The notes below the pieces were generated by a model, which had not been told where the DNA came from, ran no database searches, and worked only from the letters and a program-made list of their open reading frames with translations. The position numbers and the translations under genes are program-made. From Pseudobutyrivibrio sp. (GTDB lineage: Bacteria; Bacillota; Clostridia; Lachnospirales; Lachnospiraceae), in contig NZ_JAFUSK010000009.1 in the NCBI RefSeq assembly GCF_017471675.1, positions 1 through 39,041 on the forward strand: 39,041 bases of DNA, in the 5' to 3' direction. Shown here piece after piece: positions 31,440 to 38,500 of the stretch (position 1 is its first letter; each line of letters opens with the position of its first letter).

Positions 31440-32213
31440 TTAGCTTTTTTTCTTTGCAACTATAAGGTATCTATGAATAGTTCCCTCTACAAATCCGTTC
31501 TTATCAATTGCTTCCTGCATTTCAAGAAGCTTCTCAAAGCATTTATCAACAGAGAATCCTGGGAATTCCCATTCGATAATATGTGCAAACCATACAAATG
31601 CACCAACATCGTAGAACCTGATTGGTTTAAAAACTTCTTCTGCCCTTATTATCTCAAAGCCTGCTTCTTCAAACTTCTTTCTCTGAATTGATAACTCCAA
31701 TTCTGGAAAAGGTGCAGGTACATCAGGAAGAACCAGCTCAACTAAATCTCTGTCGTTCTTGCCTCCTACCTGCTGTGTGATAAAAAGCCCTTCTCTCTTA
31801 AGAAGTCTATGTGCTTCCACAGGATCAAAACTCCCATGCCTGTTTATCATTATGTCAAAAGAGCTGTCAGCAAAAGGGATATTTGACTCATCATCGCAAG
31901 GTCTGAAATCTATCCCAAGTGGTAGTAAAATCTCCTTACACAATTCCACATTAGGGGCGTATCCTTCAGTAGCTGCAGTATTCTTATATGGGTGCTTCAA
32001 AGATAATAAAAACTCACCACCACCTGTATCAAAATCCAATAGCTTCATATCAGGAAGAAGAAATTCGTCAATTATCTTCTTGTAATCCCAAGGGAGATCA
32101 TCCTCCTCTTCATATCTTCCATGGATATGAGAAAAATCCCATCCATGAATGTGTGCAACCTTCTCCTCTGCTTCCCACTCTTTTCTTAATTCACTTATTC
32201 TATCTGTATTCAT
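31440..32213 (-). CDS. SAM-dependent methyltransferase (class I)
   Basis: A 257-aa protein with a Rossmann-type methyltransferase core: motif I LLDFDTGGGEFLLSL (residues 58-72), acid loop ATEGYAPNVELC, motif IV region FADSSFDIMINRHGSFD, and HRLLKREGLFITQQVGG. The N-terminal 45 residues are charged and Trp/His-rich. The substrate is not evident; it is not an Erm-type rRNA dimethylase by motif. AAAAGGAG precedes ATG 32213. Expression appears controlled by a 180-base leader with its own short ORF (32316-32351), unusual for a housekeeping enzyme and suggesting induced expression, possibly by a ribosome-targeting drug. Confidence 0.88.
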   Translation of the reverse strand: MNTDRISELRKEWEAEEKVAHIHGWDFSHIHGRYEEEDDLPWDYKKIIDEFLLPDMKLLDFDTGGGEFLLSLKHPYKNTAATEGYAPNVELCKEILLPLGIDFRPCDDESNIPFADSSFDIMINRHGSFDPVEAHRLLKREGLFITQQVGGKNDRDLVELVLPDVPAPFPELELSIQRKKFEEAGFEIIRAEEVFKPIRFYDVGAFVWFAHIIEWEFPGFSVDKCFEKLLEMQEAIDKNGFVEGTIHRYLIVAKKKS

Positions 32214-32226
32214 ATCTGCTCCTTTT

Positions 32227-32406
32227 CAAATAATAGTCTGCTCTTCATTATTTGTTCGGTGCAGTATGTGACAGCAAATAACATCTATTAACCTCGGTAC
32301 AACCTGCTGTCAGCATCAAAACTGCACCGAGTAATTATCTCGCATTCTCATGATTACCTCCCACGTGACCTCTGTTTGTCCAGATTGTCACAACAAAGAT
32401 ATTATA
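32227..32406 (-). promoter_or_regulatory. Structured attenuator-like leader of the methyltransferase gene
   Basis: The promoter is TATAAT (32406-32401) with TTTACG 18 bases upstream. The transcript then holds: a GTGAC/GTCAC hairpin; the leader ORF; segment A (TCGGTGCAGT, 32330-32321) inside that ORF; B (TGACAGCA, 32312-32305); C (GTACCGA, 32300-32294); D (TGCTGTCA, 32276-32269); E (ACTGCACCGA, 32265-32256). A pairs with E over ten bases, or A's first five bases with C; B pairs perfectly with D. A last hairpin CAAATAAT/ATTATTTG (32254-32247 with 32234-32227) abuts the methyltransferase ribosome site. Confidence 0.65.
32316..32351 (-). CDS. Leader peptide MRMRDNYSVQF
   Basis: This is an 11-codon ORF with an ideal ribosome site (GGGAGGT, 5 bases from ATG 32351). 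It contains an Arg-x-Arg motif at residues 2-4. Arg/Lys-x-Arg/Lys motifs are the established macrolide-dependent ribosome arrest sequence, as in ErmDL (MRLR). Codons 8-11 overlap leader segment A, so a ribosome held at codon 3 or 4 would shield A and change the downstream fold. Arrest itself is inference. Confidence 0.6.
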   Translation of the reverse strand: MRMRDNYSVQF

Positions 32407-32518
32407 AACAATGTTATAAGCACACGTAAATACTAATTTAATTATTTTCCGAGATAATCAATTAAAGCTTTATAACAGAACAAAATATCCCCTTTTCAAA
32501 ATATCTCTGCTTAACCTA

Positions 32519-33067: not shown

Positions 33068-33424
33068 TTAGATATCCTCCAATTCCTCAAGCTGTCTCAA
33101 TGCCTTCAAATAAGCCTTTAACCTCTTCACCTGCTCCTTTTTAAGACTATGAATCTCAATAAGAAGCTCCTCATCCTGCTTTTTAGCCACATAATCAATT
33201 GTAGGCTCTATATAGTCTTCATCTATATCCTTCCCAGTAAGAAGCTGCTCTGGTGTCACGTCAAGGACTCTGCATATATCCATAATTTTATCAGCGGAAG
33301 GATTATGCCCCTTTCTCTTCCAATCACTGATTGTGCTAGGTGCTATCCCCGCAGCTTTGCCAAATGCATTCTGACTTAACCCACGCTCTTTTATAAGGAA
33401 AAATATTCTTTCAGTTATTGTCAT
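33068..33424 (-). CDS. XRE-family phage-type repressor
   Basis: A 118-aa protein. The HTH_3 domain is at residues 3-60: ITERIFFLIKERGLSQNAFG, KAAGIAPSTISDWKRKGHNP, then ADKIMDICRVLDVTPEQLLTG. The C-terminal half is a charged helix (KKEQVKRLKAYLKALRQLEE), probably for dimerisation. ATG 33424 was chosen because the promoter's start site (about 33465) lies after the alternative start at 33481. It probably regulates itself and the 149-aa gene downstream, a lysogeny- or element-type control pair. Confidence 0.88.
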   Translation of the reverse strand: MTITERIFFLIKERGLSQNAFGKAAGIAPSTISDWKRKGHNPSADKIMDICRVLDVTPEQLLTGKDIDEDYIEPTIDYVAKKQDEELLIEIHSLKKEQVKRLKAYLKALRQLEELEDI

Positions 33425-33471
33425 AGCTTCTATCCGCCTATCCGAATTTTTTAATCTTCGATTACACGAAC

Positions 33472-33500
33472 ATATTATCATGTAAACAAAACGTATTCAA
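33472..33500 (-). promoter_or_regulatory. Promoter of the XRE regulator
   Basis: On the minus strand TTGAAT (33500-33495), 17-base spacer, TAATAT (33477-33472). Confidence 0.5.
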
Positions 33501-33574
33501 TATCAAACAAATCTTTTTCCTCACATACACATGTAACCTTTTTGGTGCATCCTTATTCATACCTTCCGCAATCT

Positions 33575-33614
33575 AAAAAAAGCTTCCAAACTATTCACAG
33601 TTTGGAAGCTTTTT
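33575..33614 (-). terminator. Terminator of the serine recombinase gene
   Basis: Perfect 15-base arms AAAAGCTTCCAAACT (33578-33592) and AGTTTGGAAGCTTTT (33599-33613), with a T run on the minus strand. It lies 17 bases after the stop. Confidence 0.9.
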
Positions 33615-33630
33615 GCTTTATTTAATTCTT

Positions 33631-35382
33631 TCAATTTTTGCGATGGTTTCCACATGTGTCTACACTATGATTTGAGCACTGATTTTCCTGATGTACACTA
33701 CTATTTGAGGACACATTTTCGTCGCTCTTTTTACTCTTCGGACCAAACTTTGTTTTAGCATGATCGAAGCTATCCTTGAATCCGGTTTTGTATATAAAAG
33801 TGACCTTATAGGGATCTGCATTTCCGTCATCGTCGTACCCTCCGACAATGACTTTTTCAACAATACTTTCAAAAACCGCTCTATCAAATTCTTCAAGAAC
33901 CTGATTCTGAGTAAGAGTCTTTCTGAAGCCTTCTATTCTCTTGCGAAGACTATCGTCTCCCTGTACCTGCTTTTCATAGTATTCAAGCTGAGACTGTGCT
34001 TCTGCATATTTAACCTCATATTCAGCATCCATTGACATATAGGTTTCTTTATCTATCCCGTCATCAACATATTTATCAAGAAGTTTTTTTCTTTTTTCTT
34101 TGTATTGCTTGACCTCTTTCTTAGCCTTCTGATAGTTCTTCTCGTTGGCATCATCTCCAAGAGTCTTCTCTATCCTACTCAGAAACTCATTCATTACTTC
34201 CTGATTATCTGAACACAAAAGTCTATATGATTCTATAAATGCTTCCTCTATGACCTGTTCCGGAATACCTTTTGAATCGGGACATAGCTTTTTGCCACCC
34301 TTCGTAGATGTAACACACTGCCAAATAGTCTTTTTATACTTGGATGAGCTGTGCCATTTTCTTCTTGTGAGATGACCACCGCAAAAACCACATTCTATAA
34401 GAGAGCTAAACGCAAACATTCTACTGTACTTTTCTCTCTTGCCAATCTCAACATGGTGCTGTCTTCCACCATTACGCCTTTCTCTCAGAGCCTGTGCTTT
34501 TTCAAACGTCTCATGTGAGATAATTGGCTCATGATGATTTTTTATAAAAAAGCGATCTTCCTCTCCAAGATTATCAAGCCTTCTCTTAGTTATAGGATCA
34601 ACAGTAAATGTCTTTCCTAACAGAATGTCACCTGTATACTTTTCATTATTGATAACCCCCATGACGCTTGAAGATGTCCAAGGATTACCCCGTATAGTCA
34701 TGATGCCTTGCTCATTAAGCTCTCTGGCAATCATCGTGCTTCCGGCTCCTGCCACATATCTTTCAAACATATATCTGACAGTTTCGGCTTCTGTTTCATC
34801 TACCGATATCGTTTTGGTCTCTATATCATACTTATAGCCAAGGCAGCCCTGAAATCCTACAAGCTCACCCCGCTTCATCTTCATCTTAAGACCCTTTTTT
34901 ACATATGCAGAAGTGTTCTCTACTTCCTGCTGTGCCACAGAACTTAGAATGGTAAGAAGGAATTCTCCATCCTTGATAGTGTTAATCTTCTCAACCTCAA
35001 AATAAATAGCAACATTCTTTGTTCGGAGCTGCCTCACATACTTTAGGGTATCCAGTGTGTTCCTTGCAAACCTCGAAAGACTCTTTGCAATAACCATGTC
35101 GATCTTACCAGCCATGCAGTCTGCTATAAGCCTTTGGAAGTTCTCTCTCGTCTCTGCTTTGGTTCCGGTAGAAGCCTTGTCAGCATATACTTCAACAAAT
35201 TTCCAATCGGGATTCTTCTTTATTAAATCAGTATAATACTTAACCATAGAGTCATAACTCTTGATCTGCTCTTCATCCGCAGTACTTACTCGACAATACG
35301 CAGCTACTCTGAGGCGGTCTTTTCTGCCTACCGCCGCAGAATTGTCAAAGTTTGTCTTTGCTTTTATAACTTCAACTTCCAT
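33631..35382 (-). CDS. Large serine recombinase (integrase)
   Basis: A 583-aa protein. The resolvase catalytic domain begins RLRVAAYCRVSTADEEQ with nucleophile Ser33, then the Arg-rich IAKSLSRFARNTLDT helix. The recombinase domain (GCLGYKYDIETKTISVDE ... VMGVINNEKYTGDILLGK), a zinc ribbon (IECGFCGGHL ... CVTS ... LC) and a coiled coil (NEKNYQKAKKEVKQYKEKRK) follow. It would integrate and excise the element through attP/attB crossover. The Ser/Asn-rich tail (SSNSSVHQENQCSNH) is unusual. GAGAGGTGG precedes ATG 35382; the GTG at 35388 is less likely. Confidence 0.95.
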   Translation of the reverse strand: MEVEVIKAKTNFDNSAAVGRKDRLRVAAYCRVSTADEEQIKSYDSMVKYYTDLIKKNPDWKFVEVYADKASTGTKAETRENFQRLIADCMAGKIDMVIAKSLSRFARNTLDTLKYVRQLRTKNVAIYFEVEKINTIKDGEFLLTILSSVAQQEVENTSAYVKKGLKMKMKRGELVGFQGCLGYKYDIETKTISVDETEAETVRYMFERYVAGAGSTMIARELNEQGIMTIRGNPWTSSSVMGVINNEKYTGDILLGKTFTVDPITKRRLDNLGEEDRFFIKNHHEPIISHETFEKAQALRERRNGGRQHHVEIGKREKYSRMFAFSSLIECGFCGGHLTRRKWHSSSKYKKTIWQCVTSTKGGKKLCPDSKGIPEQVIEEAFIESYRLLCSDNQEVMNEFLSRIEKTLGDDANEKNYQKAKKEVKQYKEKRKKLLDKYVDDGIDKETYMSMDAEYEVKYAEAQSQLEYYEKQVQGDDSLRKRIEGFRKTLTQNQVLEEFDRAVFESIVEKVIVGGYDDDGNADPYKVTFIYKTGFKDSFDHAKTKFGPKSKKSDENVSSNSSVHQENQCSNHSVDTCGNHRKN

Positions 35383-35451
35383 ATCCACCTCTCATTTTTG
35401 TATCACTATCGTAATGTACTATGATAAATATAAAATAATACGGTAGATAAG

Positions 35452-36987: not shown

Positions 36988-37611
36988 ATGCTTTTTGAAT
37001 ATTTGAAAGAACATTACGATGACGGGGAGCCTATCTTCCTCGATGATATTCATATAGAAGGAATGCGAAGGGATAACTTCCGCCAGCAGATCAAGACACT
37101 TGCAGACGCAGGTAAGATTGTGCGATATGAGAAAGGGATTTATTATATTCCGAAGAAAACCCGCTTCAGCTCATCCGCCGGCCCGACTCCCGAAACGGTA
37201 GCAAGGTACAAATATATCTCCCGTGGTGGTAAGACTGACGGTTATTATTCCGGCAGCACCTTTGCCAACATCATCGGACTGTCCTTGCAGGTACCTATGA
37301 AGAAGGAAATCGTCAGCAACAACATAGCCGCCATCGTAAGGGAAGTGCTGATCGGCAAGCAGTCCTTTATTGTCAGAAAGACCAATGTTCCCATCTCCGA
37401 TGATAATGTTAAGGTTCTTCAGCTTTTGGAATTATTAAAAAATCTGGACTCTTACCTTGACAGCGATTATGATGAAGCGAGGGAAAAATTAAAAAAATAT
37501 TCTCTTGCGAACCATATTACAAGAGACGATGTTGACCAATATATAAGACGATATCCGGATTCAACCTTCCGGTATTATTATGAAATGAGGTTAGACCATG
37601 TACTTGCATAA
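36988..37611 (+). CDS. AbiEi-type antitoxin/repressor (type IV toxin-antitoxin; DUF6088-like)
   Basis: A 207-aa protein. The N-terminal winged helix (residues 1-60) reads FLDDIHIEGMRRDNFRQQIK and LADAGKIVRYEKGIYYIPKK. The C-terminal antitoxin domain holds GGKTDGYYSGSTFANIIGLS and a helical end. In the AbiE family this protein represses the operon and neutralises AbiEii without direct contact. AAGGAGCAG precedes ATG 36988. It overlaps the toxin gene by 14 bases. It is a cargo gene pair of the mobile element that can defend against phage and stabilise the element. Confidence 0.88.
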   Translation: MLFEYLKEHYDDGEPIFLDDIHIEGMRRDNFRQQIKTLADAGKIVRYEKGIYYIPKKTRFSSSAGPTPETVARYKYISRGGKTDGYYSGSTFANIIGLSLQVPMKKEIVSNNIAAIVREVLIGKQSFIVRKTNVPISDDNVKVLQLLELLKNLDSYLDSDYDEAREKLKKYSLANHITRDDVDQYIRRYPDSTFRYYYEMRLDHVLA

Positions 37612-38500
37612 TGATAAGGATCTCTTTACAGAGGTCATAACAGAAGCCAACGCACAGACCGGCATCGCAGAATCCATCATTGAAAAGGATTACTACGTTA
37701 CCATGATCTTAAAACTGTTGGCAAAGAGCAATCCTGATATAGTTTTCAAAGGGGGAACCTCATTATCGAAGTGTTTTCACCTTATCAACAGGTTTTCCGA
37801 AGATATTGATATCACCTTCTCTGAACATATCGGAGAATCCCGGAGAAAGAAACTCAAATACAATATCCTCAAACCGATCAGTGATGAGCTGGGTATGCCC
37901 ATTGAGAACTGGGACAGTATCGAGAGCGATAAGGATTACAACTATTACCTCTTTGTCTATCAACCTGCAAACGACTACCCAGTTGAAGGCATCATGCCCG
38001 GAGTAAAACTTGAAACCGCCCTTGTCTCCTATTCCTTCCCGACCGAAGAAAGGGATGTTGACTCGATTATCTATGGAGCGATAAAAGACTCTGCACCGGA
38101 CATCATCTCAGATTACGGGCTTGAACCGTTTTCGATGAAAGTGCAGTCAGTCAGCAGGACATTCATTGATAAGATTTATGCCCTCTGCGATTATTACATG
38201 GAAGATAAAACGAAACGTTTTTCAAGACACCTGTATGATCTCCATATGCTCTATCCGACCATTACTGTGGATGATTCATTTATGGGACTTATACAACAGG
38301 TTCGTGAGCATCGTTCAAAGCTTCCTATCTGCCCTTCCGCAAAAGAAGGCGTAGATATAAAATCGCTCATAACGGAGTTCCTTGATAAAGAATTCTATAA
38401 GAGCGACTACGATAACATCACCAGAACGCTGATCTCCGATGATGTGACCTATGAGCAGACTTCTCTCACTCTGAGAGAAATCGCAGAAAAGCTGTTCTGA
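37598..38500 (+). CDS. AbiEii-type nucleotidyltransferase toxin
   Basis: A 300-aa protein. The nucleotidyltransferase core is KDYYVTMILKLL, FKGGTSLSKCF (GGTSLSK 52-58) and RFSEDIDITF (Asp69, Asp71 as metal ligands), followed by the family's later block (IDKIYALCDYYMEDKTKRFS with RHLYDLHML). Family members add nucleotides to tRNA acceptor ends or otherwise act as GTP-dependent nucleotidyltransferases, stopping growth on phage infection. All motifs look intact, so the system is probably active. GAGG lies upstream of ATG 37598. Confidence 0.92.
   Translation: MYLHNDKDLFTEVITEANAQTGIAESIIEKDYYVTMILKLLAKSNPDIVFKGGTSLSKCFHLINRFSEDIDITFSEHIGESRRKKLKYNILKPISDELGMPIENWDSIESDKDYNYYLFVYQPANDYPVEGIMPGVKLETALVSYSFPTEERDVDSIIYGAIKDSAPDIISDYGLEPFSMKVQSVSRTFIDKIYALCDYYMEDKTKRFSRHLYDLHMLYPTITVDDSFMGLIQQVREHRSKLPICPSAKEGVDIKSLITEFLDKEFYKSDYDNITRTLISDDVTYEQTSLTLREIAEKLF

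Follow-up and report, generated by a model that had tools for sequence, protein, structure and literature searches.

A short leader peptide with competing RNA pairings upstream of a methyltransferase gene in Pseudobutyrivibrio: a probable translational attenuator with relatives in other Bacillota

What controls a methyltransferase gene lying behind a very short open reading frame (ORF), and does this control respond to compounds that act on the ribosome? The question is raised by a 39,041-nucleotide stretch of Pseudobutyrivibrio DNA (contig NZ_JAFUSK010000009.1 of assembly GCF_017471675.1; hereafter the window, meaning the whole stretch that was analysed). A gene for a putative class I SAM methyltransferase of 257 amino acids (31440..32213, minus strand), recognized from Pfam, AlphaFold2 and PDB folds, starts about 100 bases after the end of an 11-codon ORF. 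A first-pass annotation had proposed here a candidate erm-like, drug-inducible resistance switch. Our comparative data point to a translational attenuator that is probably turned on by ribosome stalling at a conserved arginine codon. The host genome resembles Butyrivibrio-type Lachnospiraceae, the closest named full-length relative of the methyltransferase being from Butyrivibrio and 96% identical.

The ORF, MRMRDNYSVQF followed by TGA (32351..32316, minus strand; start ATG at 32351, stop ending at 32316), is preceded by a strong Shine-Dalgarno (SD) sequence, GGGAGG (32357..32362, minus strand). Among 62 distinct leaders, a start led by a strong SD was found in the leader frame of 58, versus one and none of the 62 in the other two frames. 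On comparison, the leader is shown at the sequence level to be an ORF under selection, and the translated MRMR peptide proposed in the first-pass annotation is borne out to that extent. A short upstream ORF with its own SD, the broad mark of a leader-peptide attenuator, is thus present in these 58 sequences. A candidate promoter, TTTACG-18-TATAAT (32401..32430, minus strand), was located by a consensus scan, and its layout recurs in the close relatives L002, L003, L005 and L058; the scan gave eight promoter-like sites in the region against 3.9 expected, a count that says little on its own. No second copy of the leader was found in the window's genome, either by pattern or by covariance model.

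Several other features of the locus were recorded. A 24-codon ORF, MLFAVTYCTEQIMKSRLLFEKEQI (32210..32284, minus strand), begins within the leader RNA and reaches the methyltransferase start through an ATGA overlap; a second, coupled leader is possible at this place. A large serine recombinase gene adjoining that of a Cro/C1-type regulator (33068..35388, minus strand) lies just upstream of the leader, and the methyltransferase, given this neighbour, may stand at the edge of an integrated element. On the other strand (36988..38500, plus), a gene for a DUF6088 protein is followed by one for an AbiEii-type nucleotidyltransferase, which looks like a type IV toxin-antitoxin pair.

The leader RNA of the window has a predicted folding energy of -57.9 kcal/mol (z -3.74 versus shuffles, one of 200 shuffles being as good). 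Its last codons form segment A, CTCGGTGCAGT (32321..32331), which resembles the SD of the target gene and, as the first-pass annotation had recognized, has two alternative downstream partners. These are segment C, GTACCGAG (32293..32300), the competitor for A and proposed OFF latch, and segment D, ACTGCACCGA (32256..32265), a partner either of A (ON) or of the methyltransferase SD (OFF). Segments B, TGACAGCA (32305..32312), and B', TGCTGTCA (32269..32276), covary with each other. The SD region of the methyltransferase, AAAAGGAGCAG (32216..32226), forms with D a duplex of -10.7 kcal/mol in the window, a pairing that the earlier annotation had missed; all of these segments are on the minus strand. 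C and D are each complementary to A and not to each other, and A:D is the conserved alternative pairing. A second hairpin, CAAATAAT...ATTATTTG (32227..32254, minus strand), was seen between D and the methyltransferase SD, right before the latter; by eye, a similar one with an altered loop occurs in close Butyrivibrio relatives.

Pairing of A with D and of B with B' was followed in 34 related leaders, in which 97.6% of the cells were paired and the covariation score was 0.138, versus at most 0.043 with the partners slid. In a more diverse set of 53 leaders, two-sided changes were counted in 5 of the 9 A:D pairs (36 cells, versus a mean of 10.6 after shuffling) and in 4 of the 8 A:C pairs (20 cells, versus 6.0); the narrower set of 34 gave no two-sided change in A:C. 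One control was not low: sliding A:D by +3 in the 53-leader set gave a score of 0.228 versus 0.290 in the true register, with 58.8% versus 95.4% of cells paired. Individual variants fitting the pairings were also noted by eye, such as A CTTGG with C CCAAG (L145), A CCCGG with C CCGGG (L198) and A CTCGATACAG with D TGTATCG (L197), together with an SD extension matched to D in L147 and L196. In the class of leaders preceding ABC exporters, all four segments are altered together (A CAGTACAG, D CTGTACTG, SD GGAGTACAG), while synonymous codons keep the peptide at YSVQL. Pairing of the CGA region with the beginning of A in a further hairpin was also considered and dropped, as CGA persists where A becomes CTCAG.

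The way in which these sets were assembled bears on how the figures are to be read. Leaders were first picked by the sequence of A, and rows were later filtered for six A:C pairs plus AA or AT opening codon -1; D was chosen as the best partner of A. Percentages paired are therefore flattered, and the sounder evidence is that of matching changes, of shuffles and of the D:SD class test described below. The smaller alignment holds 34 of 35 leaders, L019 being omitted for its long loop; the larger holds 53 of 59, with L002, L004, L005, L037, L057 and L189 omitted as near duplicates and L019 already outside the 59. Three leaders that failed the row filter (L082, L131 and L146) were added by hand, and six target starts were assigned manually; L146, which has no target start, is absent from the fold-model and D:SD sets. 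Alignment rows are related and not independent.

Duplexes between D and the SD of the target provide the class test. Over 59 leaders, each D pairs with its own SD at a mean of -10.3 kcal/mol, versus -4.22 with a shuffled SD. When D segments of the GC class (CGGTGC and like) were matched with SDs of the UA class (CAGTAC), the mean fell to -6.53 kcal/mol, and the reverse exchange gave -5.45 kcal/mol; swaps inside a class nearly equalled own pairs (-8.87 and -10.87 kcal/mol). D is hence matched to the SD by class and is an anti-SD, A being similar to the SD of the target. At the level of sequence, comparison shows A:C, A:D and D:SD all to be pairings maintained across relatives.

Conservation of the RNA raises the possibility that the ORF is incidental and that the element is a riboswitch or a protein-binding RNA. 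Peptides were compared over 74 leader loci (a few places being counted under two handles), which gave 56 distinct peptides, with positions counted from the codon where A begins. Serine at +1 and valine at +2 are each found in 53 of the 56, and the exceptions (S to L, R or P; V to I, G or M) accompany changes in the RNA of segment A; much of the peptide conservation may therefore be RNA conservation, and for the same reason 'YSVQ' was mostly dropped as a conserved arrest peptide. The SD-led start in the leader frame runs against an incidental ORF, as does the codon before A (-1), which encodes Asn in 42 and Lys in 8 of the 56 peptides. Rfam likewise offered no family: the only match in the window above gathering threshold was a tRNA, and relaxed E-values added two chance-level matches for the window stretch, while six relatives gave none. 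An RNA element of this kind appears very improbable, and the translated leader is retained in what follows.

The effect of ribosome position was modelled by masking the RNA up to 15 bases past the first P-site base and computing, for each of 59 leaders, the energy cost of freeing seven bases at the SD of the target; the models assume this 15-base front edge and equilibrium. The mean cost was 3.35 kcal/mol without a ribosome, 3.17 and 3.12 with the P site at codons -6 and -5, and 1.99 at -4, where the Arg codon occupies the A site; it then rose to 3.63 at -3 and to between 6.7 and 7.7 from -2 to +3. Two codons past the Arg-in-A-site state, predicted SD closure is thus greater by about 5 kcal/mol on average. 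The window leader follows the same course (2.5 free, 0.5 at -4, 4.5 at -3 and 8.7 at -2). In 59 of 59 leaders the cost at -2 was higher than that at -4 by a margin above 0.5, and such a margin over -4 was also found at -3 in 43 and for the free RNA in 35 of 59. On rounded values, -5 lay above -4 by this margin in only 27 of 59, and in 34 of 59 leaders -4 had the lowest cost among the six states. Shuffling the spacer in 24 of the 59 leaders reduced the step from a mean of 5.78 to 0.24 (sd 0.85). Alternative pairings that depend on the position of the ribosome, one of them sequestering the target SD, are in this way indicated by covariation and fold models together.

These models support the earlier view that the geometry fits a stall at codons 3-4. 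The accompanying claim that such a ribosome covers A stands only in part: with a 15-base edge, codon 3 in the P site covers just its first two bases, and codon 4 covers 5 of 11. With Arg in the A site, the front edge would fall between the second and third bases of A, at the beginning of the A:D helix. The RNA without a ribosome is predicted to be only partly closed (mean 3.35 versus 1.99 kcal/mol), so the OFF state must rest on translation or folding order, neither of which equilibrium folding can show.

Control at a terminator was considered at this point, as terminators under leader control have been described in B. subtilis for tlrB (PMC6851288) and bmrCD (PMC4191407). On the minus strand, no terminator-like site was found between 31300 and 32620; in the window, the D hairpin lacks a U-run immediately behind it, and one of the pairing partners is the SD itself. 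Transcription attenuation is the least probable reading that we weighed, and the proposal remains one of translational attenuation.

Beyond conservation, the steps of this mechanism are ones that we infer from the models. Running ribosomes would cover A and leave D to pair with the methyltransferase SD; after their departure, the nearby C would catch A, and the gene would be held OFF in a state combining A:C with D:SD. A stalled ribosome holding the Arg codon in the A site (and, in the window, the peptide MRM) would have its front edge over just the first two bases of A. Such an early stall would break A:C while leaving eight to nine D-pairing bases of A free; A could then capture D, B:B' would zip up, and the SD would be exposed. 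The ON state would accordingly be A:D, strand 1 freeing the SD. The stall itself may be caused by a ribosome-targeting compound acting together with a short nascent chain and an Arg acceptor, and a macrolide-like drug binding the tunnel would be the best-known fit for the inducer. The product of the target gene, be it a methyltransferase, an exporter or a radical-SAM enzyme, would counter the stalling compound.

Central to this proposal is the arginine at position -3 of the peptide. It occurs in 47 of the 56 distinct peptides and is encoded by CGA in 47 of 47; in the window it is the fourth leader codon (32340..32342, minus strand), the proposed A-site codon of the stalled ribosome. The nine peptides without it have Y, L, P, S, F or H instead, and Lactobacillaceae plasmid leaders are among them. 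The 25 Arg codons counted elsewhere in these leaders were AGA (20), AGG (3) and CGG (2), and CGA makes up 8 of 229 Arg codons in 18 ORFs of the window and 9 of 97 in eight sampled target genes.

Such a preference could also be expected of a general sensor of slowed translation, in which the rare CGA would pause the ribosome in the right place and many inhibitors, or a shortage of the CGA-reading tRNA, would prolong the pause. Earlier reports lend this some weight: CGA was a slow codon in a his-leader assay (PMC4046918), rare codons are functional in the bmrB leader (PMC4191407), and toiL of E. coli senses at least five drug classes (PMC12121999). However, a built-in pause would leak expression without inducer, and CGA, which is less rare in the eight target genes, could reflect shared ancestry. 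The nine leaders without Arg at -3 also speak against a CGA-based pause, which in addition leaves the near-constant Asn or Lys at -1 unexplained. We consider this sensor unlikely to be the explanation, and stalling with Arg as acceptor remains the preferred one.

A stricter version of drug sensing, close to the first-pass annotation, would have the +x+ tripeptide itself respond to a macrolide or ketolide and the methyltransferase modify 23S rRNA in the exit tunnel, in the manner of TlrB or RlmA(II). The window leader MRMR fits the pattern Arg/Lys-x-Arg/Lys, and +x+ is found at -5/-3 in 22 of the 56 peptides (MRMR, MKKR, MRER and so on); the remaining 34 do not have it there, many of them being of the form M-x-x-x-R (MKIIR, MQFVR). 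The +x+ macrolide motif that had been put forward thus fits this leader and a minority of its relatives, codon 3 being variable and nine leaders lacking Arg at -3. Set against the stems, codon 4 is conserved, codon 2 loosely so, and codon 3 is not. In the published account of ErmDL, the A-site Arg is strictly needed for arrest with telithromycin and the motif is dispensable with erythromycin (PMC8298421). By this analogy, the formulation that survives best is a short nascent chain combined with an Arg acceptor, on the pattern of ErmDL arrested by telithromycin, and sensing of macrolides by the leader is plausible.

The enzyme bears on the other half of that version. The sole Pfam match of the window protein up to E 0.001 is Methyltransf_11 (23.9 bits), its AlphaFold2 model has a mean pLDDT of 94.3, and NCBIfam gave no family up to E 0.001. 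No Erm or rRNA adenine dimethylase profile of Pfam or NCBIfam matched it at that threshold, and one of 29 family members gives E 0.067 with Erm(32), a guanine-748 enzyme; the methyltransferase is not an Erm, as had been surmised. In favour of rRNA modification, 27 of the 29 family members reach E 0.1 or better with the RlmA model of NCBIfam, the best value being 1.6e-8, and the RlmA(I) structure 1p91 ranks third by Foldseek; the tlrB leader MIIQFIRYR of B. subtilis is moreover described as tylosin-induced (PMC6851288). Against it, the window protein scores 15.3 bits with RlmA, far below the curated cut-off of 303, two other methyltransferase models match 29 of 29 members, and several small-molecule methyltransferases are equally near in structure; structure comparison did not separate rRNA from small-molecule methyltransferases. 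Its first 90 residues contain no cysteine, and hence no zinc ribbon is present there. A single-sequence search returned no solved structure, and the window's own genome gave three weak RlmA matches, all below cut-off. A strict macrolide switch is thus doubtful, at about the same level as the slowed-translation sensor, and the broader stalling attenuator is kept.

Distribution of the leader was examined at methyltransferase loci and in genome sets. By the sequence of segment A, it was first located at 38 sites among 109 loci. Genome contigs, when scanned, yielded 79 loci of the methyltransferase, of which 29 had a leader at E 0.001 and 50 had none, some contigs being cut. The methyltransferase itself was matched in 27 of 299 family genomes, some of the matches being weak. 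The covariance model built on 34 leaders (R1) found the element in 30 of 397 family, 6 of 29 genus and 8 of 391 class genomes, five of the 8 lying outside the family; the wider model built on 53 (R2) detected it in 9 of 391 class genomes and in 6 of 398 at the phylum level, four of the 6 lying outside the class, the R1 and R2 genome sets being overlapping. Linked to the methyltransferase, the element is present in some of the Lachnospiraceae, in a few further families of Bacillota and on plasmids of Lactobacillaceae. Among eleven plasmid loci of the methyltransferase (L182 to L192, out of 59 matching records), seven carry the leader, all of them from Lactobacillaceae, and four of these deviate, with CTG for ATG (L184), Leu for Val (L186) or a stop for Gln (L189, L192).

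The leader was missing at the methyltransferase loci of Fusobacterium vincentii (60% identical enzyme), Niallia, Priestia and Streptomyces clavuligerus, was not found at those of the distant homologues L071, L073-L075 and L077-L079, and was absent from a Melissococcus relative of the ABC exporter. Methyltransferase relatives at about 40% identity without leader (L073, L074, L077, L078 and L079) lie on contigs labelled Heimdallarchaeota. A query with leader DNA matched nothing in plasmid and phage collections, the plasmid leaders, later reached by protein search, being too diverged for DNA. Three pattern scans of viral contigs returned 0, 0 and 32 stretches, and none of the 32 matched R1 at E 0.1, which provides no evidence for a phage-borne copy. 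Signs of decay were seen by eye: L006, L009 and L029 retain no more than the last part of the leader, which is the SD region or, in L029, D plus SD. This part follows a different sequence, a pattern that would fit loss of the switch at these loci. Some leader-bearing methyltransferases appear damaged, with an internal gap (L119), an in-frame stop (L145) or a shortened start (L146).

Target genes are not restricted to the methyltransferase. By our reading, the 31 leader matches in the R1 family set (30 genomes) precede methyltransferase genes in 18 cases, ABC exporter subunits in 10 and a radical-SAM protein in 3. For the exporter subunits, only L133 was run against Pfam (ABC_tran), and L137 is cut by a contig end; among the radical-SAM targets L121, L136 and L140, two have a SPASM domain by Pfam. 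Matches in the class and phylum sets add another radical-SAM protein (L148) and, in two genomes that belong to different families, an MFS-type exporter (L147, by Pfam MFS_1; L196, by resemblance to L147). The leader therefore stands before five gene types, namely the methyltransferase, ABC exporters, MFS exporters and two kinds of radical-SAM protein, two of the five being exporter-like. None of five non-methyltransferase target proteins exceeded an NCBIfam cut-off among the matches listed, so that target names rest on domains. The radical-SAM and MFS targets would require another story under a strict macrolide switch.

It is possible, and we put it forward tentatively, that the element represents a transferable 'plug-in' stalling leader across Bacillota. 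At least five unrelated gene types would be placed under one signal, with a 1:3 wiring that depends on the ribosome edge falling two bases inside strand 1, and with a CGA codon that is read; the targets would provide inducible defence against a ribosome-targeting compound met in the gut, the rumen and fermented food. No description of this leader, including the strings NYSVQL, NYSVQF, KYSVQF and KYSVQL, was found in the open-access literature. Its conserved sequence could serve as a tag for uncharacterised inducible resistance genes in gut and rumen bacteria, the covariance models can be used to find further members, and the element may offer a test system for an RNA flipped by one codon of ribosome position. 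Identification of the inducer would suggest a role for a methyltransferase family without assigned function.

Leader-controlled resistance genes are already a known kind of system, and what would be new is the modular, shared attenuator with 1:3 wiring. As in attenuators of the ermC/cat type, the OFF state would combine 1:2 with 3:4 (SD), and a stalled leader ribosome would switch the gene on. In the classic erm arrangement the ON pairing is 2:3, strand 1 lying beneath the ribosome; here, in contrast, ON would be 1:3 (A:D), with most of strand 1 uncovered by the stalled ribosome, and the 'classic erm attenuation logic' of the first-pass annotation is not supported in that form. To our knowledge, an ON state that joins strand 1 with strand 3 is not known from erm or cat.

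At the level of the peptide, ErmDL and other +x+ leaders are described as having a basic-x-basic motif near the peptidyl transferase centre and Arg as A-site acceptor, and MRxR is similar to RLR, the site of macrolide arrest in ErmDL, whose last Arg is in the A site (PMC8298421). The present leaders differ in that most of the 34 relatives without +x+ at -5/-3 keep only the Arg, and in that the target is not Erm. The leader of B. subtilis tlrB (yxjB) is likewise short and has a basic arrest site; it also shares the placement of Arg in the A site, an SD-sequestering hairpin and a methyltransferase target, and differs in adding a terminator and NusG pausing and in that the ribosome stalls at the end of the peptide and blocks the sequestering hairpin (PMC6851288). 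Mutation of the start abolished induction in tlrB. In the window, the proposed early stall would instead leave A free to capture D, and the methyltransferase is at most remotely related to TlrB. The bmrB leader of B. subtilis, in which rare codons are functional, governs a multidrug ABC exporter (bmrCD) in response to ribosome-targeting antibiotics, but is 53 residues long and acts on a terminator (PMC4191407). In the E. coli toiL-topAI system, an upstream ORF is similarly combined with SD occlusion relieved by ribosome stalling, and its authors propose relief by stalling anywhere in toiL (PMC12121999). For the window leader, by contrast, only an early stall is predicted to relieve the occlusion, and ribosomes at later positions are predicted to close the SD.
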